NCBI RefSeq assembly: GCF_000788395.1
Contig: NZ_CP009889.1
Location: 310,001 to 374,000 of the forward strand
From: Pseudoalteromonas piratica
Lineage (GTDB): Bacteria > Pseudomonadota > Gammaproteobacteria > Enterobacterales > Alteromonadaceae
Length of the DNA stretch: 64,000 nucleotides
Direction of reading: 5' to 3'
In this document: positions 9,038-57,829 of the stretch, one piece after another
How the letters are laid out: each line of letters opens with the position of its first letter
Position numbering within the stretch: the stretch's first letter is position 1
The notes under the pieces: model-generated
Databases searched by the model: none
What the model was told of the DNA's origin: nothing
The model's input: the letters and a program-made list of their open reading frames with translations, nothing else
Translations under genes and position numbers: made by a program

Positions 9038-9039
9038 TT

Positions 9040-34497: not shown

Positions 34498-34499
34498 CC

Positions 34500-36623: not shown

Positions 36624-36624
36624 T

Positions 36625-40447: not shown

Positions 40448-40456
40448 GAGGACACT

Positions 40457-42004: not shown

Positions 42005-42053
42005 TGTTATAAATAACAGTTAGTTGCATTGTTTAATTTAAATATAAATGATA

Positions 42054-42085
42054 GGGTGGCTAATAGGATTTAGTCACCCATTTTT
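42054..42085 (+). terminator. Rho-independent terminator of the glycogen operon
   Basis: GGGTGGCTAA (42054-42063) pairs with TTAGTCACCC (42070-42079), ten pairs with one G-T wobble. It is followed by ATTTTT. Confidence 0.85.
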
Positions 42086-42129
42086 ATGTGTGTCTTTCTA
42101 TTTTAAATAGTAATTAAACGGATTTATTT

Positions 42130-43993: not shown

Positions 43994-44188
43994 GGGAGTA
44001 AAAATACGCAATAAATAGTATTTAAAGTGAGAGCCTTGTTAAATGGGTATAATTTTTTAGTAAAAATCTTTGGTTTATTAATACTGTCAACTAGTGATGA
44101 GTTAAAATCCGAGCCGCAAAAAAAAATTAAACTTTTAAAATTATTTTTGCATCAAAGCAATGATGTACAGGCAAAAAACCTGCTATGA

Positions 44189-45229
44189 CTAGTTCTGGTT
44201 ACTATTAATTTTTGAAAATGATATAGAACCCTTTTTAAAGTCGAGCACTGCGTGAGCAGTTTGGCCCCACCAATCACATTCTTTAAAACAATACCCTTCA
44301 ACTTTAATCGCCTTAGACGAATGCTTGCTGATGCCATTGAGTGGAAAATACCCTTTAGAGGATTCAAGACCTGAATAAAGCAAATGCCATTTTCCACCGA
44401 GCTTTACAAAACTATAAGCAAAGTTTTCATACACAGGCTGGTTTTTTGTTTGTACTTGCACAAAGGTAAAAAGCTCAGTTGAAATGCGTGAAACCGAAAA
44501 CCATGTTTGCATCTCGTTAAGCAATTTCTCAAAGGCCTTTGTGGATGTTAATTTGAGCGGCACAAGTGTCAGGTTAAACTCATTTGCCGTACTAGCATCA
44601 AAATTTTGATTTAAATACTCATCAAATTTGGGCAAGTAAGCATTAATCGTTTCTTTTTGCTTTTCAATGAGTTCAAAGTGACCCAAGTCACTTTCGCAGA
44701 ATGTGGCAGAATCTGACGTTATACTTTTATCAAAAGTTGAAATTGCATTGGGTTGGCAAGTAAATGCATAACTTGGGCTTATAGTGTTAGTTTGCTCATA
44801 ATAACTATCTGGAGCGGCTATAATTGGGTAAGTTTTAAATCCAGACGCTGAAGAAATAACAAGCTCCGAGAAAGGCAAGCCGACACCATCATTAACAGCC
44901 GTGATTTCAAATGCTAAATAAGGTTGGTTTTTAAGTTTTACAATGCGACTTACATGTAAGCCATTACCGTGGTTGTAATAGCGATGATTCCCATAAGTCA
45001 TTTCGATTTCTGCATCACCCTCTAAATCATTAATTACTGAAAACTGATAAACATGTTTACCATCAAGTGTACTAGCTGAAAAACTGGTGCGGCCAAACTC
45101 TTTAAATTTTCTATCTAAGACGGGATCAATGACGTTGATATCAATGCGATAATTATTTTGGTCATTCGCTAATGCACCTGTAGCCGATAAAGCCAATAGC
45201 AAAAAATAAAGTAAGATGAATATTCGCAT
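44189..45229 (-). CDS. Exported protein of unknown function (346 aa)
   Basis: I do not recognise this protein. It has a signal peptide (MRIFILLYFLLLALSATGA, cleavage near LAND) and a beta-rich mature domain. There are four cysteines in two groups (TCQPNA/FCESD and YCFKECDWW), so it is likely an oxidised periplasmic or surface protein. It stands alone and opposite to its neighbours. The stretch 43994-44188 downstream of it is AT-rich without a gene. Confidence 0.65.
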   Translation of the reverse strand: MRIFILLYFLLLALSATGALANDQNNYRIDINVIDPVLDRKFKEFGRTSFSASTLDGKHVYQFSVINDLEGDAEIEMTYGNHRYYNHGNGLHVSRIVKLKNQPYLAFEITAVNDGVGLPFSELVISSASGFKTYPIIAAPDSYYEQTNTISPSYAFTCQPNAISTFDKSITSDSATFCESDLGHFELIEKQKETINAYLPKFDEYLNQNFDASTANEFNLTLVPLKLTSTKAFEKLLNEMQTWFSVSRISTELFTFVQVQTKNQPVYENFAYSFVKLGGKWHLLYSGLESSKGYFPLNGISKHSSKAIKVEGYCFKECDWWGQTAHAVLDFKKGSISFSKINSNQN

Positions 45230-45390
45230 TATGAGATGAGCCTTTATCTGCTTTAATTACATCTTAGAATACGGATATTAAATGTATAGTGTCTAGTTTA
45301 GTAAACACTAATAAATTAGCTTGTAAATCTAAGTGGGGTTATCCGTAATAATGTATATAAATCGATCATAAAATCATCATAGAGGTAAAT

Positions 45391-45789
45391 ATGAAGACAA
45401 TGGCATCGTTGACTACAGCGTTAACGTTAATTTTGTCGAGTGTTAATTTAGCTGCCAAGCCGTTGATTCTAAAAAAGCGTGATGCAGCAGGTGCTATATA
45501 CAGTCAAATTGACTTGTTTTTGCATAAGCAATGTCAACGTGATGTTGCTTCGCAATTTGCATCACACTATAACGGCATTAAAAGTGGATTAAACAGCAGT
45601 AACACAAAGAGTGCTGAAGACTATGAGGCTCGAGCAAAAAGAGTACAGGTCATTATAGATTATACTGATAATCACAATTGTACTGTGGATATGCCTTTGC
45701 TTCCTACAGGTAATGCTAGTGTAATTTCCGAACCCGGACGTAACATTAAAACCTATGTACTGATGATATATCCTTATTTTTCAATGTAA
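45391..45789 (+). CDS. Exported protein of unknown function (132 aa)
   Basis: A signal peptide (MKTMASLTTALTLILSSVNL, cleavage near AAK) is followed by about 110 residues with two cysteines (HKQCQRD and NHNCTVD). These probably form a disulfide. A helix-rich middle (VASQFASHYNGIKSGL) and no membrane segment suggest a soluble periplasmic protein. An AGAGGT site precedes the ATG. The next exported-protein gene follows 20 bases later. No family assigned. Confidence 0.65.
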   Translation: MKTMASLTTALTLILSSVNLAAKPLILKKRDAAGAIYSQIDLFLHKQCQRDVASQFASHYNGIKSGLNSSNTKSAEDYEARAKRVQVIIDYTDNHNCTVDMPLLPTGNASVISEPGRNIKTYVLMIYPYFSM

Positions 45790-45809
45790 TAAAAATAAGA
45801 GACTGCAAT

Positions 45810-46220
45810 ATGAAAAAGTGCCTAATTTTATTTGTAATATGTTTGCTTCCGATCATATCACTTGCAAATACACCCGCTAACGCTTTAGAAAATCACCTTA
45901 ATAAATTAAATACAGCGTGTTTAGCAAAAGTTAAACAATCAGCTAGTAAAAAAGGTGAAGTAATTGATAAGTGCATTACTCAGCTAGATGAACTGCTAGC
46001 GACAAAAGTTGCCAAAAACGATATTGTTAATGTGCAAAAAATTTATATGCTTGAATACATTATGCAAGACTATAAAAACGATGCAACCTGTCTTCAATTT
46101 CAAAGTTCATTGCACGGTATACATGAGCATTTCACCCTTGAACATCTTGATGCACTGTCAGACCATGCACTTAAATGGTATGACTTACTGTGTGATGAAA
46201 ATCGCTGGAAGGATGAGTAG
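45810..46220 (+). CDS. Exported helical protein of unknown function (136 aa)
   Basis: The 136-residue product has a signal peptide (MKKCLILFVICLLPIISLA) and a mature part that reads as an all-helical bundle (ALENHLNKLNTACLAKVKQS, then CITQLDELLATKVAKNDIV). It has four cysteines in the mature domain (TACLA, DKCIT, ATCLQ, LLCDE). It lies 20 bases after the preceding exported-protein gene and is probably co-transcribed. No family is recognised. Confidence 0.65.
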   Translation: MKKCLILFVICLLPIISLANTPANALENHLNKLNTACLAKVKQSASKKGEVIDKCITQLDELLATKVAKNDIVNVQKIYMLEYIMQDYKNDATCLQFQSSLHGIHEHFTLEHLDALSDHALKWYDLLCDENRWKDE

Positions 46221-46379
46221 AACACTTTGAATGCACTTAAGATATAAAGTTTATTACTTTGCAGACTAAAGCTTTTCGTCTAAAATTTTCGCAATACTCC
46301 AAGTCCACTGTAGCGAAATTAGCGATGTATTAATTTTATAATAGCTTGGAGGAATCTATAAAATACAGGAAAGTTTGAA

Positions 46380-47495
46380 ATGAAAAAAACCTTGTTATTA
46401 TTTTGCATGATGAGCAGTTATGCACAAGCTAATAATTGTCTGAGTGTGATAACCAACTCTAAATTAGTAAATGAAAGGCAAGAAAGTAGAGAGACAATTA
46501 GGTCGTTTAAAAATAATTTTTGCCAAGAATATCGAAGAAATGAGTCGAACAATAATACTAGGGCCCTAAACGCGAGTTACAAGCTGTTTTCAGGTTCGAT
46601 TAATCGCGGCAACTCTTCAACAGATGAGCTCTTTCAGAGGTATTGTAGATCGGAAAGTAGCCAACTCGATGATGAAAGATTGTTCAAAGAACATATTCAA
46701 ACGATTGCCCCAGCTGCTTACACTGCTTATGAAAGTTGTCTGAGGTTCCAGCAAAATGATCCCGTTGATTTTTCACTTTTTAGAAATATGCCAACAGAAT
46801 TTGGTATCCAAATTGATTATCAGCCAACAAATATAGGCTCAAAGGCTCAATTTGAAGTAATGCCCTCAAATGGAGTCAACTGTAATTCCGGAACAAACGA
46901 ACAAGAGGTAACAAATTTCGAATTAACATACACCAACCGTTCGGTTGTTATTAGTTGTTCAAGAAGTGATTCAAATCAACAATCTGAAGTAGGCATTGTC
47001 AGAAGAGATCAAAGTGCGTCTATCAATTTAACTTGGCCGAGATACGTTAATGATGGCAATGGCGATTATGTACCGGTACCTGAGTTAGTTAATTTAAATA
47101 AAAAAGTTGCTGCCCTCGAAACACAAATCCAAGAGATGAATATTCAGGGTGAAGTAACAGCATTTAAAACTACTACTTGCCCAACGGGATGGGAACTTTT
47201 TGAAGAAGCTTATGGTCGCGTTATACGTGGCATTGATCCAACAGGCCAGATTGACGTAGATCGTGCAAACTTAGAGCTAAATGAAAAAGTAGCTTCGCTG
47301 CAAGAAGATGCACTACAACAACATGAACATAATACTGGTTCATATGATGCAGGTGGCGGTAATAAGGGTGCATTTCGACGTATGTATAACTATGGTCCTC
47401 CAAAACCTACTGAAGGGATTGCTGAGGGGGCAAGGGTATCTAAAACAGAAACACGAATGAAAAATGTAGCTCTTTTATATTGTGTTAAACAATAG
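46380..47495 (+). CDS. Exported protein with phage tail-collar-like C-terminus
   Basis: The 371-residue product has a signal peptide (residues 1-17, ending AQA), a Cys-containing N-terminal region, and a beta-rich middle. A coiled coil follows (about 236-255, NLNKKVAALETQIQEMN). The C-terminus resembles the receptor-binding collar domains of phage tail fibres: TTCPTGWELFEEAYGRVIRG, then LQEDALQQHEHNTG and the closing ETRMKNVALLYCVKQ. In phages this fold forms a trimeric tip that contacts the host surface. No other phage genes are present, so this is a cellular exported protein that has adopted the module, perhaps for adhesion. A terminator follows. Confidence 0.65.
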   Translation: MKKTLLLFCMMSSYAQANNCLSVITNSKLVNERQESRETIRSFKNNFCQEYRRNESNNNTRALNASYKLFSGSINRGNSSTDELFQRYCRSESSQLDDERLFKEHIQTIAPAAYTAYESCLRFQQNDPVDFSLFRNMPTEFGIQIDYQPTNIGSKAQFEVMPSNGVNCNSGTNEQEVTNFELTYTNRSVVISCSRSDSNQQSEVGIVRRDQSASINLTWPRYVNDGNGDYVPVPELVNLNKKVAALETQIQEMNIQGEVTAFKTTTCPTGWELFEEAYGRVIRGIDPTGQIDVDRANLELNEKVASLQEDALQQHEHNTGSYDAGGGNKGAFRRMYNYGPPKPTEGIAEGARVSKTETRMKNVALLYCVKQ

Positions 47496-47547
47496 GTTTC
47501 ATTGCGTATTATAGTTAGCACAATATAGCGTAGTAGTACTTAATACG

Positions 47548-47589
47548 AGAGGCTTTTATTTTTGATAACAAAATTAAAAGCCTCTTTTT
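47548..47589 (+). terminator. Rho-independent terminator after the collar-like gene
   Basis: AGAGGCTTTTA (47548-47558) pairs perfectly with TAAAAGCCTCT (47575-47585), followed by TTTT. Confidence 0.85.
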
Positions 47590-47691
47590 GATTTTAGATA
47601 CGTATTTTATATTTGAAAGTTATTTAGGCTGATGTAGCGATGCTCAATAAGTACACAGTTCCTATAACTAATTTTATAGAGTAAAGTTATT

Positions 47692-48180
47692 ATGAAAAGT
47701 TTACCTTTCATCTTACTTATGTTCTTCTCACCCGAAGTATTTGCTTCAGAATTAAAAAAAGGTCAACGCTGGCCTCAGTCAAGCGAGATTAAATCTTCAG
47801 GTGAAGCACGGCAAACATTGTCAGGTAGCAGCTTGCGAGATTGTATGAATAAAAGTGCAAATAATTTACCAGTTTTTAAGTTTGAAGAAGGAAATTTTAC
47901 GGATGTGCAAGCTTCAGAGAAATTATGTGCGGCTATAATGGATTTAAATAAGTTGGTAATGAAAGAGTGGCCTGGTAAAACACTTCGGGTCACAGAAGCT
48001 TATGATCAAGATGGTGAACATGCTAAGTTTAGCTTGCATAATGAAGGGCGTGCAGCTGATATGACAGTCAGTGACAGAGACTTAAAAAAGCTTGGGCGCC
48101 TTGGGTTCTTGGCCACAAAAGCAGGGTTTTCATGGGTATATTATGAACATAACCATATACATGCTTCAGTAAAACGTTAA
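47692..48180 (+). CDS. Exported bacterial Hedgehog-type domain protein (HH-signal / M15-like)
   Basis: The 162-residue product has a signal peptide (residues 1-19, ending VFAS). From about residue 60 it aligns with the N-terminal signalling domain of animal Hedgehog: [45 protein letters not shown] and [16 protein letters not shown]. Positions equal to the Sonic hedgehog calcium ligands (Glu65, Glu66, Asp71, Glu102, Asp105, Asp107), zinc ligands (His116, Asp123, His157) and peptidase-like residues (His110, Glu152) are all present. The fold is that of M15/LAS metallopeptidases, so a calcium-gated zinc peptidase acting on peptidoglycan is the most likely role. There is no Hint/intein domain. It is a single gene after a terminator. 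Confidence 0.85.
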
Positions 48181-48225
48181 TGTTTGTTCACTAAATACAA
48201 AATATTTATTTTAAACCTCACGAAT

Positions 48226-48272
48226 CTCAGTTTTTGACCGGATTACTCTAATAATTACATTAAAAACTGAGG
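48226..48272 (+). promoter_or_regulatory. Hairpin covering the ribosome site of the five-gene operon
   Basis: CTCAGTTTTT (48226-48235) pairs perfectly with AAAAACTGAG (48262-48271). The right arm contains the start of the GAGG ribosome site of the gene at 48281, and AAACCTCA just upstream offers a longer alternative pairing. It may control translation or transcription entry into the operon. Confidence 0.4.
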
Positions 48273-48280
48273 TTTCGATT

Positions 48281-48574
48281 ATGAAAAAATTTATTCTTTT
48301 AGCACTTTTATTCTCACCTTTTGTTTCATCGCACCACTTTCAACACTTACCGGTACCACAATACCAAACCTATACTTGGCATCAGGGGCAAGCACCCGTT
48401 TTAATGGGGCATGTTAATATGTGGTATTGCAGCTTAAGTAGTGTAAGCGGCAAGTTTGAAGGGGGCGGTGAGCAGGTGAGTGTCACAATAAATCAAAATG
48501 GCTTTTGGCAACTCAGTGGCCGCTCACAGCAAGTGTCAGTTGAAGCACAAGCAATTTGTATTAGAAGGTTTTAA
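48281..48574 (+). CDS. Small exported protein, first gene of the collagen/Lon-like/sigma-like operon
   Basis: The 97-residue product has a signal peptide (MKKFILLALLFSPFVSS) and a beta-rich mature part of about 79 residues with two cysteines (MWYCSLSS and QAICIRRF) likely joined by a disulfide. His and aromatic residues are frequent near the start (HHFQHLPVPQYQTYTWHQ). No family is recognised. Two bases separate it from the collagen-like gene, and a hairpin covers its ribosome site. Its position suggests it is the exported sensor or effector of the operon, which is inference. Confidence 0.68.
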   Translation: MKKFILLALLFSPFVSSHHFQHLPVPQYQTYTWHQGQAPVLMGHVNMWYCSLSSVSGKFEGGGEQVSVTINQNGFWQLSGRSQQVSVEAQAICIRRF

Positions 48575-48576
48575 AA

Positions 48577-49521
48577 ATGCACCAGCAATTTGTAAGCAAG
48601 GTGACATATTTATTGGCGGTTAGTTTGTTTTGCTTTAATTCAGCAACAGCAAACGCTAACCAAGGTATGCCGGTTATTTGTACCGCTAACACACAATTAA
48701 CCTTAGAAGCTGTATCAGAACGCTACCTAATCGTACCTGAGCAACAGATTTGTACGTTAAAATTACAGAATTCTCACGCACTTACCCCAAGTAAATTAGA
48801 GCTTAGACAAGGGGCGCAGCTTGCCGTTAAAGCAACTGTAAATAGGCACTCGCGCACTGTGGTGAGCCTTGTAACTGATTCAGTCTATTTTGGCAAAGAT
48901 GCTGCTATTCGTTTAGCTGGCGCTGACGGGGCCAATGGCGTTGATGGTAAGGACTATAGCCATACGCAGGCCAACTACTGTACAGACGGCATCGCTGGTG
49001 GGGATGGTAGCAATGGTTCAGACGGAAAAAATGGCTTAAGTGTGTATTTAAACATTAAACTACACGAAAAAAGTGAGATGCCAACCATTACAACTTATGG
49101 TGGGCTTGCTGGCAAGGGGGGGCTCGGCGGTTTAGGGCAACGTGGTGGTGGTAAAGCTAACGATGAAGTGATTTTAAAAGCAGCACATTCAATGCAAAAA
49201 TTATTAGGCAGCTTGGGTCATAAAAAAAGCGTGATTGACCCAAGCAAACTCGCATGTAAATCAAACAACCGTGAAGGACGAAAGGGAATTAAAGGAAACG
49301 ATGGAAAGCCAGGAAAGCAGGGGCGTTCAGGCAGTGTTTGGGGGCAAATTCAATTATCGAAAACCAGCAAACAAGCTAAGCTGAACCATACTCGGTTTAT
49401 CAAGTCACAAACCAATTATCATGGTGATGCTGGGCTTTTTTTCATAGTTCACCCTAATAGGGCGGGGGAAAATCCGTCTTATCAAGTAACCAGTTATATT
49501 GATTTGGAGATTTATCAGTGA
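48577..49521 (+). CDS. Exported collagen-like Gly-X-Y protein
   Basis: The 314-residue product has a signal peptide (ending near TANA, residue 27) and a beta-rich domain (about 30-112). Glycine repeats follow in three blocks: residues 115-125 (GADGANGVDGK), 138-153 (GIAGGDGSNGSDGKNG) with a glycine-rich loop near 176-192, and 233-252 (GRKGIKGNDGKPGKQG). These are short collagen-like triplets, some Gly-rich rather than true triplets. Two cysteines (YCTDG and LACKSN) may crosslink. It probably forms a surface or periplasmic fibre or scaffold. An AAGG site inside the previous gene drives it; its stop overlaps the next GTG start by 4 bases. Confidence 0.75.
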   Translation: MHQQFVSKVTYLLAVSLFCFNSATANANQGMPVICTANTQLTLEAVSERYLIVPEQQICTLKLQNSHALTPSKLELRQGAQLAVKATVNRHSRTVVSLVTDSVYFGKDAAIRLAGADGANGVDGKDYSHTQANYCTDGIAGGDGSNGSDGKNGLSVYLNIKLHEKSEMPTITTYGGLAGKGGLGGLGQRGGGKANDEVILKAAHSMQKLLGSLGHKKSVIDPSKLACKSNNREGRKGIKGNDGKPGKQGRSGSVWGQIQLSKTSKQAKLNHTRFIKSQTNYHGDAGLFFIVHPNRAGENPSYQVTSYIDLEIYQ

Positions 49522-51215
49522 TCCACGGGTTAATTTATCAAAGCCCGTGTACTAGTCGGGTTGAGCCGATCATAGTGATGAAAACAGCAGTGCCATTAAA
49601 AAATGAGCACAATCAGCACTTAGTTTGCGAGTTTATTGGCCAGGCGAATGAAGAACAAAAGGCTGCTTTAGCAAACGTTGTTGGCTTGCTAAATAAAGAA
49701 CTCGTTCGTTTTTTCAAACCTACTTCGCCTATTATGTTGCGCTTAAAATGGCACACATTACAAGCGAGTGAGATTAGTGGTCAGAGCGCACAGTTAACAC
49801 TAGCGCTGGCGATTGTACAATATTTGATTCGTGAATCTTTACTAATTGGTAGCTTTGTCTCATTTGATGAGCAGATTAGTTTAGTTGCATGTACAGGCGA
49901 GCTGGATAGTTACGGTAACGTTAAAAAAGTGGATAGCATTATCGGGAAGCTTGAAGCGGCGCTTAACTATAAAAGTGAACGCAAATTATGTCTGTTTATT
50001 CCTAAAGAGCAGTTGAAGCTAGTAAATGAAAGCCTTGATACTAAGCTACAAAGGGAAGGTGTCAGCATTACTGGGGTAAGTAGTTTAACGGATTTATTAG
50101 ATAAAGCGTTTGCACTTAATTCAAAACGCAATAAGCTGCGGGCATGGTTTAATCAAACGATTAACAGACGGGTTGTAAAAGGGTTAGCCTTATGTGGCTT
50201 TGTTTTTATAACTTATTTTATTTACGTTTTTATTGCCAATTTACAATACCAAATAAAAGTAGAGCAAGCACAAAAAGCATTGGCTAGTAATGATTTTCGT
50301 ACTTTGAAAACACATTTAAATTGCTTTGAAAAAAGTTGTATACAAGCTTTGCAGTTACCGCAGGATTTCAAAACAAAATTAAGTGAAGCAGTACCGCAAG
50401 CTTTAAGTAATGATAATAGTACTGCAAACTTTTCAGGGGCGAGTCAGGCATATATTTATTTTAACGGTGATGCAATTTCAGTGAATAACGAAATAGCTTA
50501 TTTAAGTGATAACAACGAAACTCGCCCGTTACTCAATATACCTTTGCCGTGGTCAGACAGAATAATAAAAGGCTCATTATGTGCAAAGCAAAATGCCGAT
50601 ATGAAGTATGCGCAATTGCGATATCTCACCCATGGCGGCTTTATGGTCGAAGTGAGCCCGTTATCGAGCTTAGTGAGTGATAGGCACCCTCTAATTGAGC
50701 ATATGGCACCTGAAGATAATGCATTTGAGTTTACACGCTACACCAGCGCAAAGTCACATGACTGTCAATCTTGGCTTTTAACAAGCGAAAATGACAGTGG
50801 TGAAGTAAAGCTCTCTCTCTATAATGCTAATCAGCCTTCAACTCAGTATCACTATATTGATAATGTATACGGCAACCAGTTAAACGTGCTGGTCTCATCC
50901 GTTAATAAGGTTAAACCTTTAAAAATAAGTGCAGGAAACCGTGAACGGATGGCCATTTTCAATAATCAAATTATGTGTCTTATTGATGCTGCTAAAGGCT
51001 CTAATATTGTTAAGTTAAATCAGTATGAAATTGAGCAATATGTAAGCTGCTCTGAAAGTAAATACTTTATTGCAAAACTAAACCAACATTTTCATCAGTT
51101 TGGTTCGTTAAAGGCGGGTCAATTTAGAGGGAGCATAGCGATTACCATGCAAACTGATTCGCAAAAGGTGTTTTATCCGTTAATTAACTTGACTGGAGGT
51201 GAATATGAAAATTGA
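49518..51215 (+). CDS. Membrane protein with Lon-protease-like N-terminal domain
   Basis: The 565-residue product has a cytoplasmic domain of about 200 residues resembling the Lon (S16) proteolytic domain. ISGQSAQLTLALAIVQYL corresponds to the catalytic-serine helix (Ser90), then CTGELDSYGNVKKVDSIIGK and KLCLFIPKEQ. The catalytic lysine of Lon aligns with Ile142, although Lys144 is close, so activity is doubtful. One membrane helix (about 222-241) precedes a periplasmic coiled coil (YQIKVEQAQKALASNDF) and a beta-rich domain of about 300 residues with several cysteines. There is no ATPase domain. The GTG start follows GGAGATTTATCA. It could act as a signal-transducing or substrate-binding membrane protein; this is inference. 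Confidence 0.7.
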   Translation: MIHGLIYQSPCTSRVEPIIVMKTAVPLKNEHNQHLVCEFIGQANEEQKAALANVVGLLNKELVRFFKPTSPIMLRLKWHTLQASEISGQSAQLTLALAIVQYLIRESLLIGSFVSFDEQISLVACTGELDSYGNVKKVDSIIGKLEAALNYKSERKLCLFIPKEQLKLVNESLDTKLQREGVSITGVSSLTDLLDKAFALNSKRNKLRAWFNQTINRRVVKGLALCGFVFITYFIYVFIANLQYQIKVEQAQKALASNDFRTLKTHLNCFEKSCIQALQLPQDFKTKLSEAVPQALSNDNSTANFSGASQAYIYFNGDAISVNNEIAYLSDNNETRPLLNIPLPWSDRIIKGSLCAKQNADMKYAQLRYLTHGGFMVEVSPLSSLVSDRHPLIEHMAPEDNAFEFTRYTSAKSHDCQSWLLTSENDSGEVKLSLYNANQPSTQYHYIDNVYGNQLNVLVSSVNKVKPLKISAGNRERMAIFNNQIMCLIDAAKGSNIVKLNQYEIEQYVSCSESKYFIAKLNQHFHQFGSLKAGQFRGSIAITMQTDSQKVFYPLINLTGGEYEN

Positions 51216-51774
51216 AATTACAGGTGAACACCTTGAAAAGCTACTGGTTAAACCTCGGACACACCACAACGTATTGAGTGATGAAATCATTGAGATTGCA
51301 CGGAAAAAAAAATTAAAAACCAAACTATCAAAAGTGGAGTTAGATACTGTTTTTGAAACACCTGCAAATTTTGAGTTTGTATTTCAGCAGTCGCTCACTG
51401 TTTCAGCATTAACTCGTAAAGCCGCAGATACCGGTAGTCAGGCGGACTGCCTGATTGTATCTGATGCACATTGTATTATTTACTTAGAGCCAATGGGCGA
51501 AGGGGGTAACCGCTTGTTGCTCACGTTTATGCCGATTGATGATTACTTCTTTGGTAAAACAGTTTACGTTTATTATATTGTTAAACCAACATCTCACTCG
51601 GCGGAACTAGCAGAGCCTTTAAGTGGCGTGTTGCTTCAATTTGAAGTGAATAGTATGGAGCAAATATGCGAAGAAGTTGAGTTTGTATCTTTTCCTAACT
51701 CAATTGCTGAGGGTAACTTTTCTAATATTTTAAACTTCTTTGACTTTGAAGTGCTGTCGAATAATCAGGGTTAA
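51205..51774 (+). CDS. Cytoplasmic protein of unknown function (189 aa)
   Basis: The 189-residue product has no signal peptide or membrane helix and belongs to no family I recognise. It starts with a helical basic part (HLEKLLVKPRTHHNVLSDEI, then ARKKKLKTKLSK) and continues with a beta-rich domain (CLIVSDAHCIIYLEPMG, LLLTFMPIDDYFFGK). The ATG at 51205 follows a near-perfect ribosome site (GGAGGTGAAT) and overlaps the end of the Lon-like gene by 11 bases. Tight coupling to its neighbours implies a shared job, perhaps linking the membrane protein and the sigma-like protein. Confidence 0.7.
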   Translation: MKIEITGEHLEKLLVKPRTHHNVLSDEIIEIARKKKLKTKLSKVELDTVFETPANFEFVFQQSLTVSALTRKAADTGSQADCLIVSDAHCIIYLEPMGEGGNRLLLTFMPIDDYFFGKTVYVYYIVKPTSHSAELAEPLSGVLLQFEVNSMEQICEEVEFVSFPNSIAEGNFSNILNFFDFEVLSNNQG

Positions 51775-51775
51775 C

Positions 51776-52864
51776 ATGAAAACAATTGTTCATTATTTTT
51801 CAAAGTTGATGGCGTATCAATTTATCTTACCTCAAGAACGCGCTAACAAGATTAACAACCCTGCTTTTATGAAATCGTTGGTTTTTAAAGAAAAGGTAAC
51901 GCAAGCAACTAAGCTGTTTGAAAATCAAGTAATAAAAACAGAAAATGAACATGCGCTCAGAGATGAGTTTATTGCAGGTTATGAAACCGCTGCAATGTTT
52001 CAATGCAAACAACACGCGCGATTTTCAGAGCTTATTGCTGGTTTTGACAGTTCCAAAACGGGCAAGGCTTTTGTTTATGAAAAACCTCAATGGCAAACAG
52101 CGTATGAACATTTAATGAGTGTATATTATTCACTAAACTCAAATGAAAACTTAAAAGTCACAAAACTCAGTGAATACTTAAAAGATGGTCTCGCACCAGA
52201 AATTGTTAAATGTATTGAGTTGTTAGTTTATTCATATTGGCAAACAAACCGCTATGGCGTGGTTGATAAAGGTATTGATTTACAGCTGATAGCAAGCAAC
52301 ACATTATTTTATTGTGTGACCTCTTTTTCTCCGCTTAAGCATGATGACCTCTTAACATTTATACGCTGGAAATTTAAAAATAATGTTTTGAGTACGCTTG
52401 ACGCATATAAAGATACCCTTTCAATTGAACAAAGCAATGAACAGCATCAAGCACTAAAACTTGAAAATAGACTGTTAGAAACCGAAGATTTATATGATGT
52501 ATGTTCTGGCTTTGTTTCGTTTATTGTTAATGAAAATGGCCTTAAGCTGGATACTGTGTGTGGGGTCGAACAAAAAGATGAGCACAAAGTTCATTTTTAT
52601 CGCGAAGATGCGCGCTCACTTGTGCATTTAGCTGTTGCCAACTTGATTGCGAAGCTTGAAAATAAAGACAACAAGCTTGCTGAAGAAAAAATAGAGATAT
52701 TAAAACAGATGCTTTATGGCGACAATTTTGCCAACCGTGAAATCATGGGGGCAACGTCGTTTTCTGAAAACCAAACAAGGCAACGAAGGGAAAAAGTTAT
52801 GGCTGAACTAAAAGAAGAGGTGCAGTCAATTTTAACTGATTATCCAGAAGATTTTCTCTTATAG
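51776..52864 (+). CDS. Protein with sigma-region-4-like C-terminal helix-turn-helix
   Basis: The 362-residue cytoplasmic product ends with EKIEILKQMLYGDNFANREI and SFSENQTRQRREKVMAELKE. This resembles the region-4 helix-turn-helix of sigma factors (recognition helix SENQTRQRREK). A middle segment, DDLLTFIRWKFKNNVLSTLD, recalls the end of sigma region 2. The N-terminal 100 residues are unfamiliar. It may be a divergent sigma factor or a sigma-like regulator. It begins one base after the previous stop codon and is the last gene of the operon. Its similarity to the sigma-like gene at 53407 is in layout rather than sequence. Confidence 0.55.
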   Translation: MKTIVHYFSKLMAYQFILPQERANKINNPAFMKSLVFKEKVTQATKLFENQVIKTENEHALRDEFIAGYETAAMFQCKQHARFSELIAGFDSSKTGKAFVYEKPQWQTAYEHLMSVYYSLNSNENLKVTKLSEYLKDGLAPEIVKCIELLVYSYWQTNRYGVVDKGIDLQLIASNTLFYCVTSFSPLKHDDLLTFIRWKFKNNVLSTLDAYKDTLSIEQSNEQHQALKLENRLLETEDLYDVCSGFVSFIVNENGLKLDTVCGVEQKDEHKVHFYREDARSLVHLAVANLIAKLENKDNKLAEEKIEILKQMLYGDNFANREIMGATSFSENQTRQRREKVMAELKEEVQSILTDYPEDFLL

Positions 52865-52943
52865 TTTTATTTAAAGCACTCTATTTTTAGCCACTTTCCC
52901 TCCCAGTCACATTGTTTTACTGCGAGGGGCAATACGTTAGTGT

Positions 52944-53246
52944 TTAACGATTGCTGCATTCGCGCTTGGCGATACGTTGGCAGTTGTCTTTTGCTGAGCA
53001 AAGCTCAACTTTTCCGTTATTATCTTTATTGTGTATCGCAATCTCTTCGTCAATTGTTTCGCCTCCTCCAGAGGTTGCTACGTCATTACCATCATCTAAC
53101 CAAGTGACAATTCCACCATCTTTACATTGCGCAAAAAAGATTATCTCATTATCAATGGTTGTTAGTTTTTTAACTAAGTATGTGTCTTCGGCAAATAGAT
53201 TAAAACTGAAGAAAAATGTCGCAAATATTAAAAAGTTGAATTTCAT
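52944..53246 (-). CDS. Small exported protein (100 aa)
   Basis: A signal peptide (MKFNFLIFATFFFSFNLFA) is followed by about 80 residues with four cysteines (AQCKDGG, ELCSAKDNCQR and RECSNR), which suggests two disulfides. An acidic, glycine-containing middle (DDGNDVATSGGGETIDEE) may bind cations. The ribosome site (GGGAG) is good. It converges on the five-gene operon and is divergent from the sigma-like gene at 53407, with 160 AT-rich bases between, so it may be a target of that regulator. No family is recognised. Confidence 0.65.
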   Translation of the reverse strand: MKFNFLIFATFFFSFNLFAEDTYLVKKLTTIDNEIIFFAQCKDGGIVTWLDDGNDVATSGGGETIDEEIAIHNKDNNGKVELCSAKDNCQRIAKRECSNR

Positions 53247-53406
53247 AGAGTGCTCCCGTCGTAATAAGCAAAGATTCGTATTATTAATGTGAATTTAACA
53301 ATTAAAAAATTATTTAAAAAATAAAAATCAGTTTTTTCTTATAAAAACCACGAATATTAAATTAAGCAGAGATTTTAGAGGTAGCACTTCTAATCAAGAG
53401 ACTAAT

Positions 53407-54294
53407 ATGAACTCTGCACCTCCAAAAAAAATAACACATGTTAAAGATTGGTATTCAGTTATATATTGTGAAAAGGGGAAGTTTCAGCAGTCGTTACTGT
53501 TAATTGCCAAACGCTATTTCTCTAATGCGATAGAGGCTGAAATTGCCTGCGACCAAGTAATGAATAGTATTGAGCGTGATAACTTCGCAAAGTTACATAC
53601 TTACAATCCAAAGTCATGCCCACTAAAGTTTATTTATAGGGTATTTAATAATGCATTATTAGATGTATTTAGAGCAAAGTATGGCCGCTACAATATACCG
53701 AAAGCTTTAAAAACGCAGCCTGAATTACACCAACGCATTCATAATGCACTATTCTTCAAAGATACTCGCCGAACTCAGCTGATAGAAGAGTTAATGCTAG
53801 AAGGTGTACAACAGTCAGTAATTGAACAAGCTATCAAAGATGTTACCCGCTTACATTTTAACGCTACCTATAATAAAAAGAAGCCTCTTAAGTTGTATCG
53901 TGCTGATATGAGTTATAGTGAAGAATTGAGTACCACAGCAAATACTTGCTCTATAAATCATGAAGCTACAGATGAAATACATATGTGGCTACAAACTAAC
54001 AATATAGATTCGCTTTGTGAAATAAAGCACTTACTAACTGAAATAGACAAAACGGTTTTAGTATATGTCTTGCAGGGTAAATCGGTTTCTGGAGTCGCTC
54101 GTAAGCTTGGTGTTTCAAGGTCTAAAGTTGAAACCGCTTTGAAAAATACACTTAGGTTGATGTCTACTTACTTTAAAAAGTTAGAGATAGATTATTCTGA
54201 GCTTGATATTGCATTATCTTTTATTACAAGTGTTGAAACTTTATTAGCTCTTGATGCTTTTTCTGGCAATGTGCCATTTAAAAAAGCTGCTTAA
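53407..54294 (+). CDS. Divergent sigma-70-like factor
   Basis: The 295-residue product has a region-2-like part (residues about 25-100): SNAIEAEIACDQVMNSIERD, then LKFIYRVFNNALLDVFRAKYG, where N-N-A-L-L-D matches the usual R-N-x-L-x-D segment. It has a region-4-like part near the end: LTEIDKTVLVYVLQGKSVSG followed by ARKLGVSRSKVETALKNTL. About 100 residues between the two are unfamiliar. This is the plan of a group-4/ECF-type sigma factor with a long linker, though divergent. It is followed 21 bases later by a small gene that may be its partner or anti-factor. Confidence 0.65.
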   Translation: MNSAPPKKITHVKDWYSVIYCEKGKFQQSLLLIAKRYFSNAIEAEIACDQVMNSIERDNFAKLHTYNPKSCPLKFIYRVFNNALLDVFRAKYGRYNIPKALKTQPELHQRIHNALFFKDTRRTQLIEELMLEGVQQSVIEQAIKDVTRLHFNATYNKKKPLKLYRADMSYSEELSTTANTCSINHEATDEIHMWLQTNNIDSLCEIKHLLTEIDKTVLVYVLQGKSVSGVARKLGVSRSKVETALKNTLRLMSTYFKKLEIDYSELDIALSFITSVETLLALDAFSGNVPFKKAA

Positions 54295-54315
54295 TATAGA
54301 AAGAGGTGATGTCGA

Positions 54316-54627
54316 ATGGTTTATAGTTACCTAGTTAATTTTCTAAATGCATATTCCATTAAAAAGAAAATCGTTCAAATTAATAAAAGAAATTTAGAGT
54401 TTGTGGGTCATCAGCCACAGTATCGTAAAAAGGTAAATGCAATATGCTATGAAGCCATTGAAGAGATAACGTTTATTCGTTTGGCCCAGCCGAAGATAGA
54501 TTACATAAATGAACTCTATGAAACATACCAATATTTATATGATAACTACGTGATGTATGACCCAGAGGGTATTGGTAAAGGGACTTGGAAGGATATCTTA
54601 TTAATGTTAGAAAAGTATTATTTATAG
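54316..54627 (+). CDS. Small cytoplasmic protein following the sigma-like gene (103 aa)
   Basis: This 103-residue, mainly helical and Tyr-rich soluble protein starts MVYSYLVNFLNAYSIKKK and ends WKDILLMLEKYYL. It has no signal peptide and no family I can name. An AGAGGTGATG ribosome site lies upstream, and the 21-base gap puts it in one operon with the sigma-like gene. An anti-sigma or co-regulator role would fit the context but has no sequence support. A terminator-like hairpin lies between it and the convergent FtsZ gene. Confidence 0.65.
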   Translation: MVYSYLVNFLNAYSIKKKIVQINKRNLEFVGHQPQYRKKVNAICYEAIEEITFIRLAQPKIDYINELYETYQYLYDNYVMYDPEGIGKGTWKDILLMLEKYYL

Positions 54628-54660
54628 TTTGCTGTAACTTCTTAAACTTATACCACCTTT

Positions 54661-54681
54661 GGCCTCGTTAATATTGAGGCC
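54661..54681. terminator. Hairpin between convergent genes
   Basis: GGCCTC (54661-54666) pairs with GAGGCC (54676-54681) around 9 bases. It lies between the stop codons of the small sigma-linked gene and the FtsZ paralogue. T-runs are weak on both sides. Confidence 0.5.
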
Positions 54682-54710
54682 ATCTGTTTAAATTATATAA
54701 ACGCTTTTAT

Positions 54711-55802
54711 TTAATCATCTTTTCGTTGCCTTAAGTATGCAGGGATACTGAAAAGATCGTCTGGGTGTATTTTATCATTTTGTTTGTCCTCTTCATGCTC
54801 ATCGGTTTCGTAGGTTTGCTCAACGTTAACATTAAAGGATTGGCATTGGTTTATACCTGTTGCAATGACCAGTATTTCAAATGGCGTTGACAAGTTTTCA
54901 ATCATACTGACGCCACAAATAACAAGTGCCGTTGCAGGTAATTTTTCTCTGACCTGCGAAATAACTTTGTTATACGAGCCAATGCTAATTTCTTGCGAAC
55001 AACTAATTTGAATGATGGCACCTGAGCTGTTGGTTAGATCAACAGCTTCAACCAATGGGTTATTAATAGCTGTATTCACTGCATTTGTAAGTTCATCTTC
55101 CGTATCGGCTTTACCAACCCCTAAGATTGCATCGCCTTGATTATTCATAACATTTGCAAAGTCTTTAAGATCCACATTGATAAGACCATGGTTTGATAAC
55201 ATATCGAGCAATGAGCGAATAAGAGATTGCAGTATTTGATTACTGTGCCTAAAGGCATCAAAAAGTCCGATATCCTCCCCTAAAACTTTGATAAGTTTGT
55301 CGTTAGGTAAGTTGATTACTGCGTTAGCTTTACTTTTTAGTGATTCAAGACCTTCCATTGCAATCTTATTTCTTAAAGGCCCTTCTGATTCGAACGGGCT
55401 TGTAGCAATAAAAATGCATGGTTTATCAAGCTCCTTATTGATAATTTCAGCTATTACAGGGCTAGCGCCAGTACCTGTTCCACCACCAAGACCTGTTGCA
55501 CATATAATAATGTCAAAAGGCTCAAGCATATTGGTAATATCGCTCATACTTTCTTCGGCTGCCTTTTTACCGATTTCAGGATCGGCCCCAGCACCAAAAC
55601 CCTGCGTTAAGGTCGAACCCATAAGTAATTTTTCGTGACTTGCACCATGCTCAAGTACCACTTTATCTGTGTTCATTGTAAATAATGTGACTGAACTAGA
55701 TTCAATTGCTGGATATATACTATCGATAGTATTGCACCCACAGCCACCAATACCGATTACTGCAACTTTAATAATCACTTCAGGTTCTATTAATTCAAAC
55801 AT
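54711..55802 (-). CDS. FtsZ paralogue with intact GTPase and C-terminal tail
   Basis: The 363-residue product is an FtsZ/tubulin-family GTPase. The nucleotide loop GIGGCGCNTID replaces the usual GGGGN. The tubulin signature GLGGGTGTG (104-112) is intact, as are SPFESEG..R (Glu140, Arg144), LPNDKL and the T7 catalytic loop NVDLKD (Asp211, Asp214). The last residues IPAYLRQRKDD match the conserved FtsZ tail that binds FtsA and ZipA; the linker before it is short and acidic. It is not in the usual division cluster but in an AT-rich accessory region, downstream of a SPOR-like gene, so it is almost certainly a second FtsZ. The ATG at 55802 is preferred to a GTG two codons upstream. Confidence 0.88.
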   Translation of the reverse strand: MFELIEPEVIIKVAVIGIGGCGCNTIDSIYPAIESSSVTLFTMNTDKVVLEHGASHEKLLMGSTLTQGFGAGADPEIGKKAAEESMSDITNMLEPFDIIICATGLGGGTGTGASPVIAEIINKELDKPCIFIATSPFESEGPLRNKIAMEGLESLKSKANAVINLPNDKLIKVLGEDIGLFDAFRHSNQILQSLIRSLLDMLSNHGLINVDLKDFANVMNNQGDAILGVGKADTEDELTNAVNTAINNPLVEAVDLTNSSGAIIQISCSQEISIGSYNKVISQVREKLPATALVICGVSMIENLSTPFEILVIATGINQCQSFNVNVEQTYETDEHEEDKQNDKIHPDDLFSIPAYLRQRKDD

Positions 55803-55885
55803 AATCACTCTTTAATAATAAATATTGTGAGAATGCGGTGTTTAAAAATCCGCTACATATAACTAAACGGATAAAAGGTGGGAAT

Positions 55886-56437
55886 TTAACGTTTTGATTT
55901 CACAATATTACATTTACGAATATTTTCAGTTTTTAATATATTATTTAATGCTTCTGCTGTTCGCTTTGTTGAAATTACAGGCAAAACCACTTGATACCAA
56001 TCATTGCTTATACGAATTTTGCTTTTAATAGTTTTGAGATCAATGTATTTGCTTTTGTATTTTGTAAGTTCGATACGGTTGATTTTTGTTCTTAAATTTT
56101 CAGCCGCTTTAAGGGAACGAAATGAAGCACAGCGCATTGTGAATATCCCAGCTTTTTTAGGTTCTTGCACAGCTACTTCAATTGAGTATTGCTCAAGCTG
56201 CTCACTAATGTTCATTGAGTTTATTGCATGCTCTTTGGCTAATTCAGATGAAACTGATGGCTTAGCTTTACTTTTTTTCGGCTGCTCTGCTGGTTTAAGC
56301 TGCCCTGAAAAGCTGTATAGAAAGACTAAAATAATAATTGATGCCACAACTATAGCGCTCTCAATTATTTTTATATTGGTCTTTCTTGTCTCAATTTGTT
56401 TAGCGGCCGGTTGTATTTTTACAAAGTCTCTAGTCAT
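55886..56437 (-). CDS. One-helix membrane protein with SPOR-like domain (FtsN-like)
   Basis: The 183-residue product has a short basic cytoplasmic tail, one membrane helix (about residues 26-45, SAIVVASIIILVFLYSFSG) and a Lys/Pro linker (PAEQPKKSKAKP). Its C-terminal domain (about 105-183) fits a SPOR fold: FTMRCASFRSLKAAENLRTK, then DWYQVVLPVISTKRTAEALN. This is the layout of FtsN and other divisome proteins that bind denuded peptidoglycan at the septum. It lies 83 bases upstream of the FtsZ paralogue on the same strand, so the two form an operon. The SPOR assignment is by pattern. Confidence 0.72.
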   Translation of the reverse strand: MTRDFVKIQPAAKQIETRKTNIKIIESAIVVASIIILVFLYSFSGQLKPAEQPKKSKAKPSVSSELAKEHAINSMNISEQLEQYSIEVAVQEPKKAGIFTMRCASFRSLKAAENLRTKINRIELTKYKSKYIDLKTIKSKIRISNDWYQVVLPVISTKRTAEALNNILKTENIRKCNIVKSKR

Positions 56438-57033
56438 TTTTTAATCCATATTTTTTTGCTTACTAAACATGACGGATTAATTTAGGTATTTGGCACAAGT
56501 GATGATTAATTAAGAGTCTATTTTATCTATTGAGCGCTATTTACATGAAAAATCTTTATAAGGTTACAAGAATGTGTTTGTCTTAAAGGTCTCTCCAATG
56601 ATATTCGCCTACAGGCAAAATTAAACTTGTGTTTAATTACTCTGGAGACATTGACTGAATATCAGAACTTTGTCTTTGACTAGTTCGATTTCATTACTCT
56701 GATTTATTTTACATCTTGGTGGAAAATTTTGCCTAGAATAATGGCAGGCTGGCCTTTTTTAAATCAATTATTTTTTCTATAGCTTGCCGGTTTGATTAAC
56801 TGCTTTCATTAGACGGTTTTGCTAGCAATTTTGCACAAAAAATTTAAAAAACATTATTAGATGAACTAAGCATATTCATCATGCATCGACAGCTCACAAA
56901 GTGATGAATTTTTGATAATTATTTAATTCAAAAGTTAGAATCTGGCTAAAAGCTTTTTTATGTAAAGCAGGAAGAATCGATAGAGCAACTTTTGTGCTAG
57001 TTCGAAATAAACATTGGGTAAAATGAGAAGTCC
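56438..57033. other. Gene-free AT-rich stretch with a structured element
   Basis: About 600 bases hold no supportable gene. Part of it must contain the promoter of the SPOR-ftsZ operon and of the membrane-protein gene at 57034. A compact set of inverted repeats lies at 56589-56649; the rest shows only AT-rich sequence. Confidence 0.5.
56589..56649 (+). ncRNA. Possible three-way-junction RNA element
   Basis: An imperfect outer stem (GTCTCTCC near 56589-56596 with GGAGAC at 56644-56649) encloses two hairpins: GCCT-ac-AGGC (56607-56616) and the perfect AATTAAAC-ttgt-GTTTAATT (56619-56638). This could be a structured RNA or a small mobile-element end. It matches no riboswitch class I recognise. 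Confidence 0.25.
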
Positions 57034-57591
57034 ATGAACACTATAAAACAAGAAAATAAACCCCTTGATAAGTCCAAAGATTTTATAGAGTTGGCAAGTT
57101 TTACGCTTGCGTTTTTAATACTACTGCTTGCAGATTCATGGCATTCAAATAGTTATTGGTTTAGAACTTGGAATATTTTTATAGGTCCTATATTTCTTAT
57201 AGCGAATATTCGTATTTTAAAGACTAATTCATCAATCAGTATATGGACTTTGAGTATATGTTATTTGTACTTTATTTACTTTACTGCATTTTATTGTGGT
57301 TTGTTTTCTGAGGTATCTTTTTTATTTGCTGCATTAGCTGTTATATCTGCTTATAAACGATTACCCCTACTGAAATATAAATACTATCTACTGTTTTTGA
57401 TGCCGGCAATCTTGCTTGTTTTTTATTTCTCATGGCAAACCTCTACACGATTATTTGCTTGTCCATACGGGTTAGCTCCAAGCTATTTTTGGCTTACTTG
57501 GGTTTGGGATGATTACCAGCTTTTAGTAATTCTTTTACTTATCAAAATATTACTAACTTTATATGTAGTACCTAAAGTAGAAAGTAAATAA
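57034..57591 (+). CDS. Integral membrane protein of unknown function (185 aa)
   Basis: The 185-residue product has about six hydrophobic segments and few charged residues: FIELASFTLAFLILLLADSW, IFIGPIFLIANIRIL, and several aromatic-rich helices to the end. It is an inner-membrane protein. The loop LFACPYGLAPSYFWLTWVWDD is distinctive, but I cannot assign it to a family. It lies between the SPOR/FtsZ operon and an IS3 remnant in AT-rich sequence, so it may belong to the accessory region. Confidence 0.65.
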   Translation: MNTIKQENKPLDKSKDFIELASFTLAFLILLLADSWHSNSYWFRTWNIFIGPIFLIANIRILKTNSSISIWTLSICYLYFIYFTAFYCGLFSEVSFLFAALAVISAYKRLPLLKYKYYLLFLMPAILLVFYFSWQTSTRLFACPYGLAPSYFWLTWVWDDYQLLVILLLIKILLTLYVVPKVESK

Positions 57592-57695
57592 ACATGGCGT
57601 TTTGATTTGAAACTCTAGCTATTTTACTGAGGGTAAATTGTACCAAAATACGAATCGGTTAGCGTTGCTCGGCTCTAATCAAACCGAACTAAACA

Positions 57696-57829
57696 GCAGA
57701 ATTTTTGCAAGAAGCTTAAGCATTAGTAACTGAGCAAGGTTACAGCATACAAGAGCAGCCGCATATTTAGGTAACACAGACAGATTACTATATTACTCGA
57801 AAGCTAAGCACTTAATAGAAAAGTGGTAG
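57696..57829 (+). pseudogene. Decayed IS3-family transposase OrfA fragment
   Basis: Read in two frames, the bases give EFLQEA-stop-ALVTEQGYSIQE and then, after a one-base shift, AAAYLGNTDRLLYYSKAKHL. Together they match the helix-turn-helix of IS3-type OrfA (xLVTEQGYSVxEAAxxLGIxxxLLxxW). An in-frame stop and a frameshift show it is dead. No OrfB or intact inverted ends were seen. Confidence 0.65.

Follow-up and report, generated by a model that had tools for sequence, protein, structure and literature searches.

What could a second FtsZ do in a cell when its gene lies outside the division and cell wall (dcw) cluster and follows a gene for an FtsN-like membrane protein? In bacteria, FtsZ is nearly always encoded by a single essential gene. 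The question is raised by a 64,000-nt stretch of contig NZ_CP009889.1 of Pseudoalteromonas piratica (hereafter, the window), in which two genes, here named ftsN2 and ftsZ2, stand in this order on the minus strand, both with intact reading frames and with their key residues present. The genome comprises 4.8 Mb in two contigs: C1, of 3.2 Mb, and C2, of 1.6 Mb, which includes the window and the gene pair. Our findings suggest that FtsZ2 and FtsN2 could form a conditional brake on, or retuner of, cell division that acts through the FtsA they would share with the main system; we infer the braking, and we give the proposal as a whole somewhat less than an even chance.

A second FtsZ with intact motifs

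The following features define ftsZ2.

54711..55802, minus strand: ftsZ2, second FtsZ, 363 aa (Pfam Tubulin and FtsZ_C; alignment A1; AlphaFold2 model with a predicted local distance difference test score, pLDDT, of 80)
55464..55487, minus strand: nucleotide-binding motif GGGTGTGA, residues 106-113, all 8 identical across the 24 A1 rows
55161..55178, minus strand: T7 loop NVDLKD (catalytic NxDxxD), residues 209-214; N209, D211 and D214 identical across the 24 A1 rows
54723..54746, minus strand: C-terminal tail IPAYLRQR, residues 353-360; P354 and R358 invariant in A1

Both Pfam matches, Tubulin at 131 bits and FtsZ_C at 67 bits, exceed their cut-offs, and the protein matches the sequences of FtsZ crystal structures with an expect value (E) of 2e-61. 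Against TIGR00065 (ftsZ), it scores 278.9 bits, slightly below the equivalog cut-off of 295.2 that marks a dcw orthologue. The canonical gene was found at C1:1072350, flanked by ftsA and lpxC (neighbour names read from the sequences); it encodes 407 residues, and FtsZ2 shares 33% identity with its product over the aligned part. The linker that precedes the FtsZ2 tail has about 31 aa, of which 9 are acidic and 2 basic, compared with 75 aa, by the same script, in the main FtsZ, whose C-terminus reads DVPTFLRNQAD. Judged by its sequence, FtsZ2 appears equipped for polymerisation and for binding to FtsA or ZipA.

A preliminary description of this DNA had already proposed a second FtsZ with intact nucleotide-binding, T7 and IPAYLRQR motifs and a short acidic linker unlike that of the main protein, and had named two results that would refute it: no other ftsZ in the genome, or no SPOR domain in the upstream protein. 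The motifs and the difference in linker are borne out, the dcw copy on C1 is such another ftsZ, and the SPOR search with the single protein succeeds (see below). A GTG start at 55808 (365 aa) is probably wrong; the ATG at 55802 is preferred because homologues start with MFEL or similar.

A strongly diverged FtsN-type partner

The features of the neighbouring gene are listed below.

55886..56437, minus strand: ftsN2, FtsN-type SPOR membrane protein, 183 aa (Pfam SPOR, TIGR02223, match to own FtsN, alignment A3, survey of 127 FtsNs)
56423..56431, minus strand: RDF, residues 3-5 (N-terminus MTRDFV), matching the R/K-D-Y motif of FtsN at its FtsA contact
56309..56374, minus strand: single membrane helix, about residues 22-43 (hydropathy peak 22-40; helix 11-43 in the model)
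56192..56215, minus strand: position of the E (activation) domain, MNISEQLE, residues 75-82, gapless in A3
55901..56149, minus strand: SPOR domain, residues 97-179, beta-alpha-beta-beta-alpha-beta (Pfam, model, PDB matches)

The claim of a one-helix SPOR protein stood, though the sequence match is weak: ftsN2 reaches 22.0 bits against a Pfam SPOR cut-off of 21 in a single-protein search, and a genome-wide search at E 0.001 returned four C1 proteins, with ftsN2 not among them. The AlphaFold2 model has the SPOR topology at low confidence (pLDDT 60, with two near-identical sequences as input), and the four PDB structures that match it best are all SPOR domains, from RlpA (two entries), CwlC and FtsN.

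The resemblance to FtsN proved stronger than had been claimed, as indicated by the RDF motif and by a search of the own genome with FtsN2 at E 0.01, which returned itself and FtsN only; FtsN is thereby the only one of the four C1 SPOR proteins to match. The TIGR02223 (ftsN) score is 27.5 bits (E 2e-6), far under the cut-off of 107.65. The own main FtsN is encoded at C1 349242-349739, with a priA-like gene on one side and hslV/hslU-like genes on the other (named from their sequences), the usual place of ftsN. It shares 29% identity with FtsN2 over residues 3-179, and 28% in the end-to-end alignment (A3).

For comparison we assembled 127 FtsN-type proteins, consisting of the best 119 others among 277 matches to profile A3 plus eight loci. 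The Asp of the RD[YF] motif is present in 127/127, followed by Y in 93, F in 33 and H in one, and both SPOR cysteines of FtsN2 are likewise conserved in all 127. The aromatic column of the E segment holds F in 93 proteins and Y in 34, and Ile 77 in FtsN2; a nearby Pro is invariant in the 127 and is Ala in FtsN2. Of the 32 columns conserved at 90% or more, FtsN2 keeps 19 and loses 13 (the Pro is among the 13; the E aromatic falls outside the list). Its SPOR domain also contains extra residues relative to the own FtsN. The R/K-D-Y motif has been described as the conserved N-terminal FtsN motif and the site of contact with FtsA, where a D5N change harms the interaction in vivo and the FtsA double filaments in vitro (PMC7613929), and D5 and FtsA have been credited with residual midcell localisation (PMC9525312). 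In the E domain of Escherichia coli FtsN, the W83/Y85 change (WYAA) cannot support division (PMC9525312).

The best reading of the SPOR protein is a second FtsN that has diverged strongly; it apparently has what is needed to meet FtsA and septal glycan and has a changed activation segment. Its end branch in the tree measures 7.4, which leaves its ancestry unplaceable, and the sole close relative found, 97% identical, lies on a 10-kb metagenome contig. With FtsN2 as query, an FtsN-like match was obtained in 108/108 same-genus genomes, and two matches in the own genome, in G022 (with stops) and in G048 (9% contaminated).

Phylogeny, spread and selection of the second FtsZ

Homologues of FtsZ2 are 51-57% identical within Pseudoalteromonas and about 39-46% identical in proteins named Moritella, Colwellia, Thalassotalea, Vibrio and Shewanella. 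One branch (100/100) of a 52-FtsZ tree separates 26 members from 26 others, and the own main FtsZ clusters with those of Proteus and Legionella; the two copies of P. piratica fall on separate sides of this well-supported branch, in keeping with the earlier view of ftsZ2 as a second FtsZ. An enlarged tree, with 20 loci added (two identical to existing rows) and two long-branched outgroups taken out, is unrooted for lack of an outgroup and divides 46 members from 24 others by a single branch with a Shimodaira-Hasegawa-like approximate likelihood ratio test (SH-aLRT) value of 99. Another branch (99) has 41 members on one side, and the five from family f25 are placed between these and the ordinary FtsZs; f25 is the part of the group whose membership is least sure. 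The group signature G[IV]GGCGCNT replaces GGGGNA, with GGCGGN in f25 and two f1 loci, and the T7 loop NxDxxD is kept in 37/37 loci, including the truncated L187. FtsZ2 belongs to a distinct, apparently undescribed group of second FtsZs.

The distribution of this group is patchy, with a second FtsZ in 18 of 108 genomes of the genus, the own genome included. At the order level, 29 of 394 genomes have a row that ranks above the first ordinary FtsZ (bounded by eye); setting aside the own genome and G089, 20 loci were read out of 27 genomes, the remaining seven all being f25. A wide contig scan yielded at least 80 loci, mostly ordinary FtsZs of other phyla. Only L003-L006 were taken as members, and 17 further loci placed in the 52-FtsZ tree all fell on the non-member side. 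Two lower-scoring FtsZ matches, outside the group studied, occur in each of the family f3 genomes G265, G288, G319, G329, G339, G349, G415, G469 and G494.

A phage origin was rejected: 23 phage records match FtsZ generally, the best 20 of the 23 at 33-40%, and none of these 20 reaches the level of the group. Viral contigs were also set aside, with six matches of 31-47% identity, the 47% only over a short piece. A plasmid collection gave 115 matching records, five from Pseudoalteromonas at 51-55% and the others among the matches listed below 36%. These five secondary replicons, and the position of ftsZ2 on the second contig, would suit a protein that works outside division, for example as a TubZ-like filament segregating the 1.6-Mb second replicon. 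Such a role has little to recommend it in the FtsZ_C domain, the FtsA/ZipA-type tail and the FtsN-type partner; moreover, in other genera the family is carried by contigs of main-replicon size (G320:C1, G452:C1 and G156:C1, 4.3-4.9 Mb), and it is absent from most same-genus genomes. We grant it barely any probability.

Purifying selection is evident among 17 same-genus FtsZ2 genes, with a median ratio of nonsynonymous to synonymous substitution rates (dN/dS) of 0.084 and a maximum of 0.145 over 53 usable pairs; the window copy stands outside this set. Decay of the pair as a functionless duplicate would account for the long end branches (0.75 for the window FtsZ2, 7.4 for FtsN2), and broken FtsZ2 copies do exist in G043:C4 and in G151. 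It accords poorly with the two intact frames and their key residues, with the 97% identical FtsN2 on another contig and with the low dN/dS of the same-genus copies, and is in our view highly unlikely.

A WYL-type regulator as the usual neighbour of FtsZ2

In most relatives read, FtsZ2 is accompanied by a regulator of about 324 residues, whose gene immediately precedes ftsZ2 in the same orientation in 17/17 other same-genus carriers and likewise in 5/5 plasmid-collection records, where L085 is the same record as L139. At the order level it is adjacent in 14 of 20 loci: upstream on the same strand in 12, including L190, where FtsZ2 occupies 7926-9044 just past the WYL gene, and downstream and convergent in two. 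The remainder consists of one broken copy with the regulator 1.5 kb away and five loci without it within 8 kb; leaving out the five f25 loci, adjacency amounts to 9/15. The regulator is present in L006, from Shewanella electrodiphila, and absent from the Colwellia loci L003-L005. In these three, and in the Colwellia-like L176 and L177, a HicB-like antitoxin gene lies upstream of the WYL-less FtsZ2 in divergent orientation (the PF15919 test covered L003), and no toxin gene was recognised by eye beside it.

In the annotated records, the NCBI name of the regulator is “WYL domain-containing.” The Pfam WYL model was unmatched, WCX scored above cut-off, weakly, in four of five proteins tested, the PADLOC WYL model matched weakly at 34-35 bits in 2/2, and an NCBIfam search supplied no useful name. 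With a 14-member profile, the five best PDB matches, at E 1.6e-8 to 5e-8, were all regulators of the WYL or DeoR family. They cover the C-terminal third of the profile and include 7tzv, described as a DriD complex (PMC12340889). In Caulobacter, DriD induces DidA following DNA damage (PMC4211646), and DidA binds FtsN, pausing division (PMC12340889). Stress-controlled expression of the second FtsZ is suggested because its relatives are linked to this WYL-type regulator.

At the window locus, the SPOR gene occupies the regulator's position. Among the neighbouring open reading frames (ORFs) printed for the relatives' FtsZ2 loci there was no SPOR match to FtsN2, and the FtsN2-FtsZ2 pair was seen in the own genome only. 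The SPOR-ftsZ pair of the preliminary description is so far a single case and not a demonstrated recurrent module; the recurrent partner of this FtsZ group is the regulator, which could not be seen from the window sequence.

Defence genes upstream of the regulator

The regulator-FtsZ2 pair in the genus has a distinctive genetic context. We collected up to four proteins of at least 100 residues per locus before the regulator, 64 proteins from 17 same-genus loci, which matched 73 PADLOC families at 1e-15; 54 proteins downstream of FtsZ2 in 15 same-genus loci matched none. A one-by-one scan, covering 19 distinct proteins upstream (the closest one in 12 loci, the second or third in the other five, and one extra each for L131 and L134), gave a PADLOC match in at least 11 of the 17 loci, and none in the proteins scanned from L127, L128, L131, L132, L135 and L138. 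The matches comprise PD-T4-3, DRT1a, IetA-type AAA (three loci), SoFic, HEC-06-like, a type I methyltransferase, and PDC-S11 and PDC-M27C (two loci), some of them being partial, limited to AAA or helicase domains. In 16/17 loci, the ORF next upstream shares the strand of the regulator, and in 10/17 it stops within 27 bp of the regulator (in L142, the ORF has 64 codons). This spacing seems operon-like, and many regulator-FtsZ2 pairs of the genus stand last in what resemble anti-phage operons. Members of the BrxR family of WYL regulators reportedly occur together with defence systems in 48% of cases (PMC9122601).

Within 21 WYL regulators of the genus (L126-L142, L083, L084, L086 and L093), residues 1-30 are the most variable: mean pairwise identity is 0.54 in the first 30 residues (minimum 0.30), 0.80 in the next 30 and 0.63-0.87 in the other blocks. 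The pattern looks as though the first part of the DNA-binding domain had been swapped along with the upstream cargo.

One interpretation of this context is that FtsZ2 in the genus is a defence-linked effector, an immune-coupled division stop, and that the window copy represents a lineage that escaped from the WYL and defence setting and recruited FtsN2. The upstream enrichment and the tight, co-oriented spacing speak for it. Outside the genus, however, 73 upstream proteins match 58 PADLOC families, in one or two proteins each among the 25 families listed of the 58; no PADLOC model matches FtsZ2, some of the same-genus matches are the partial AAA or helicase ones, and the neighbourhood may be passive, defence genes clustering at hotspots. 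We judge this interpretation decidedly unlikely.

A broader proposal would place these observations in one scheme: Gammaproteobacteria would possess a family of second FtsZs that act on division as effectors, switched by WYL regulators sensing single-stranded DNA or nucleotides and co-transcribed in Pseudoalteromonas with interchangeable phage-defence cargo. In the window lineage, the effector would have acquired a decoy FtsN and would act at both ends of the pathway. If it were true, infection or DNA damage would stop septation too. We offer this scheme tentatively, as somewhat unlikely.

A possible brake acting through a single FtsA

The Pfam FtsA model, run against the own genome, recovered the dcw FtsA (in two stretches) and weaker proteins of 365 and 380 residues, which are probably MreB and PilM; no second FtsA was found by this search. 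Any role of FtsZ2 and FtsN2 in division would thus draw on the same FtsA as the main system. The term “accessory mini-divisome” from the preliminary description overstates the case, FtsZ and FtsN alone having been found twice and FtsA once.

According to the brake proposal, FtsZ2 and FtsN2, once expressed, would plug into the single FtsA-based divisome. FtsZ2 would bind GTP, form filaments and compete for FtsA and ZipA through its IPAYLRQR tail. The RDF tail of FtsN2 would contact FtsA, while its SPOR domain would take it to septal glycan; there its altered E segment may fail to switch on FtsWI normally, so that FtsN2 would displace the activating FtsN. The pair would thereby slow or retune division at its first (FtsZ) and last (FtsN) steps under some condition. 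In most relatives read, FtsZ2 stands beside a regulator that resembles DriD, whose output in Caulobacter, DidA, halts division at FtsN; at the window locus, FtsN2 may take the part of this regulated partner. In favour of the proposal are the two intact genes 83 bp apart on one strand, the T7 loop kept in 37/37 loci, the purifying selection on same-genus FtsZ2 genes, the retained Asp of FtsN2 together with its lost aromatic and Pro, the single FtsA, and the regulator beside FtsZ2 in the relatives.

Several observations weigh against this proposal. A search of the own genome with one WYL regulator, that of L084, returned no match (the search had no positive control), and six proteins of the window locus scanned with PADLOC gave nothing convincing; the argument for control therefore rests on the relatives. 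No SOS-box-like site was found upstream of ftsN2 in 56438-57033 by a scan for LexA-like palindromes with 3 mismatches allowed. With 13 of 32 near-invariant FtsN columns lost, FtsN2 may also have different partners. The affinity of the FtsN peptide for FtsA was not reduced by D5N in vitro (PMC7613929), which means that the Asp kept in FtsN2 is no proof of FtsA binding. The pairing of Ile 77 with E. coli W83/Y85 is putative and by position only, and an altered E segment could mean different rather than absent activation.

This last point leads to the main rival, a productive alternative module in which FtsZ2 and FtsN2 would take over from the main pair, or assist it, under special circumstances (cold, starvation or filament break-up), with an adapted E segment that activates FtsWI. 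Retention of the GTPase, the T7 loop and the tail across the group, of the SPOR fold and FtsA motif in FtsN2, and the selection that maintains FtsZ2 in other genomes are all what such a module would predict; the absence of a second FtsA from the Pfam search, the lost E-segment aromatic and the restriction of the second FtsZ to a minority of the genus are not. As far as sequence can tell, we consider the productive module unlikely.

A conserved group of second FtsZs, with a regulator alongside in most relatives read, a recurrent position behind defence genes in one genus and a linked second FtsN in one lineage, provides a way to ask how cells switch filament composition on demand. FtsN2 is, in addition, a natural FtsN in which the contacts with FtsA and glycan are apparently kept and the activation motif is changed, and it could serve to test the E. 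coli model of the septation trigger.

Genomic setting of the locus

Two further features adjoin the genes.

55803..55885, minus strand: gap between ftsN2 and ftsZ2, 83 bp; an operon is possible
54660..54682, no strand assigned: stem-loop, possible terminator, between the convergent ends of ftsZ2 and a plus-strand gene at 54316-54627

The gap holds one promoter-like site, promoter matches being at chance level, and the terminator scan at the stem-loop found 1 against 1.7 expected by chance. SOS control was rejected as a candidate: the window contains 37 LexA-like palindromes compared with 29.8 expected by chance, with none in 56438-57033.

The window is collinear with the two nearest relatives searched (G099 and G062) at 85-88% identity over 37,500-42,087 and from 43,142 to about 44,040. 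From there to 57,825 it has no DNA match in either genome, and the next matching pieces are located elsewhere; for 49,400-57,824, a match is absent from six further same-genus genomes as well. The GC content of 43,994-57,825 is 36.0%, against about 40% on either side, and that of ftsN2 is 33.5%. The gene pair sits in an accessory stretch outside the division cluster, as had been surmised. No tRNA was detected in the window by ARAGORN, and no integrase was recognised by eye in its ORF list.

Other genes of the window were noted. A four-gene accessory cluster at 48577-52864 encodes a glycine-rich repeat protein, a 565-aa protein with a weak match to Lon-type proteases, and two unknown proteins. 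Convergent with ftsZ2, 53407-54294 encodes a sigma-70/ECF-like protein of 295 aa, which is below the TIGR02937 threshold (36.2 against 42.9 bits) and has two weak CARF-type PADLOC matches (E 0.0018 and 0.0091). A glycogen/maltodextrin cluster spans 30306-42004, with genes, named from their sequences, for 4-alpha-glucanotransferase, branching and debranching enzymes, phosphorylase, ADP-glucose pyrophosphorylase and glycogen synthase.

Comparison with known systems

Among the open-licence papers listed, none by its title or the opening of its abstract describes an FtsZ-WYL pair, an FtsN paralogue paired with FtsZ or, for these genera, a second FtsZ. Two ftsZ genes occur in only a few bacteria, and there the second lies outside dcw, according to PMC9871819, whose main text never mentions Shewanella, Pseudoalteromonas or Gammaproteobacteria.

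With the canonical dcw FtsZ, FtsZ2 shares the Tubulin and FtsZ_C domains, GGGTGTGA, the NxDxxD T7 loop and an IPxxxR tail. It differs in its 33% identity to the own copy, its score below the equivalog cut-off, its separation in the trees from 24-26 others, GCGCNT in place of GGGGNA, the short acidic linker and the position outside dcw. FtsN2, for its part, resembles gammaproteobacterial FtsN in the cytoplasmic RD[YF] motif, the one helix, the SPOR domain with two cysteines and the end-to-end alignment, whereas the 28% identity, the score below the TIGR02223 cut-off, the loss of the aromatic and the Pro, and the extra SPOR residues set it apart.

DriD-DidA of Caulobacter offers a parallel for the FtsZ2 relatives, in which a WYL regulator likewise stands beside a division protein, and for FtsN as the point of action. 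However, DidA is a small membrane protein and not an FtsZ, and the window pair has no adjoining WYL regulator. BrxR and CapW are WYL regulators beside varied defence genes, as in the genus (PMC9122601, PMC9122588); here, by contrast, an FtsZ follows the regulator, the Pfam WYL model is unmatched, and the WCX and PADLOC WYL matches are weak.

The presence of more than one FtsZ-superfamily protein per cell is shared with the archaeal and plastid dual FtsZs, the FtsZ-like families and TubZ/PhuZ. These belong to other clades or have other domain sets. The TubZ/PhuZ plasmid and phage tubulins are without FtsZ_C and the FtsA tail, and FtsZ2, which has both, does not conform to this type. Two FtsZ-like families have been described (PMC2875224). 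Unlike the systems named here, whose clades or domain sets are covered in part by PMC9871819, the second-FtsZ group combines FtsZ_C with an FtsA-type tail.

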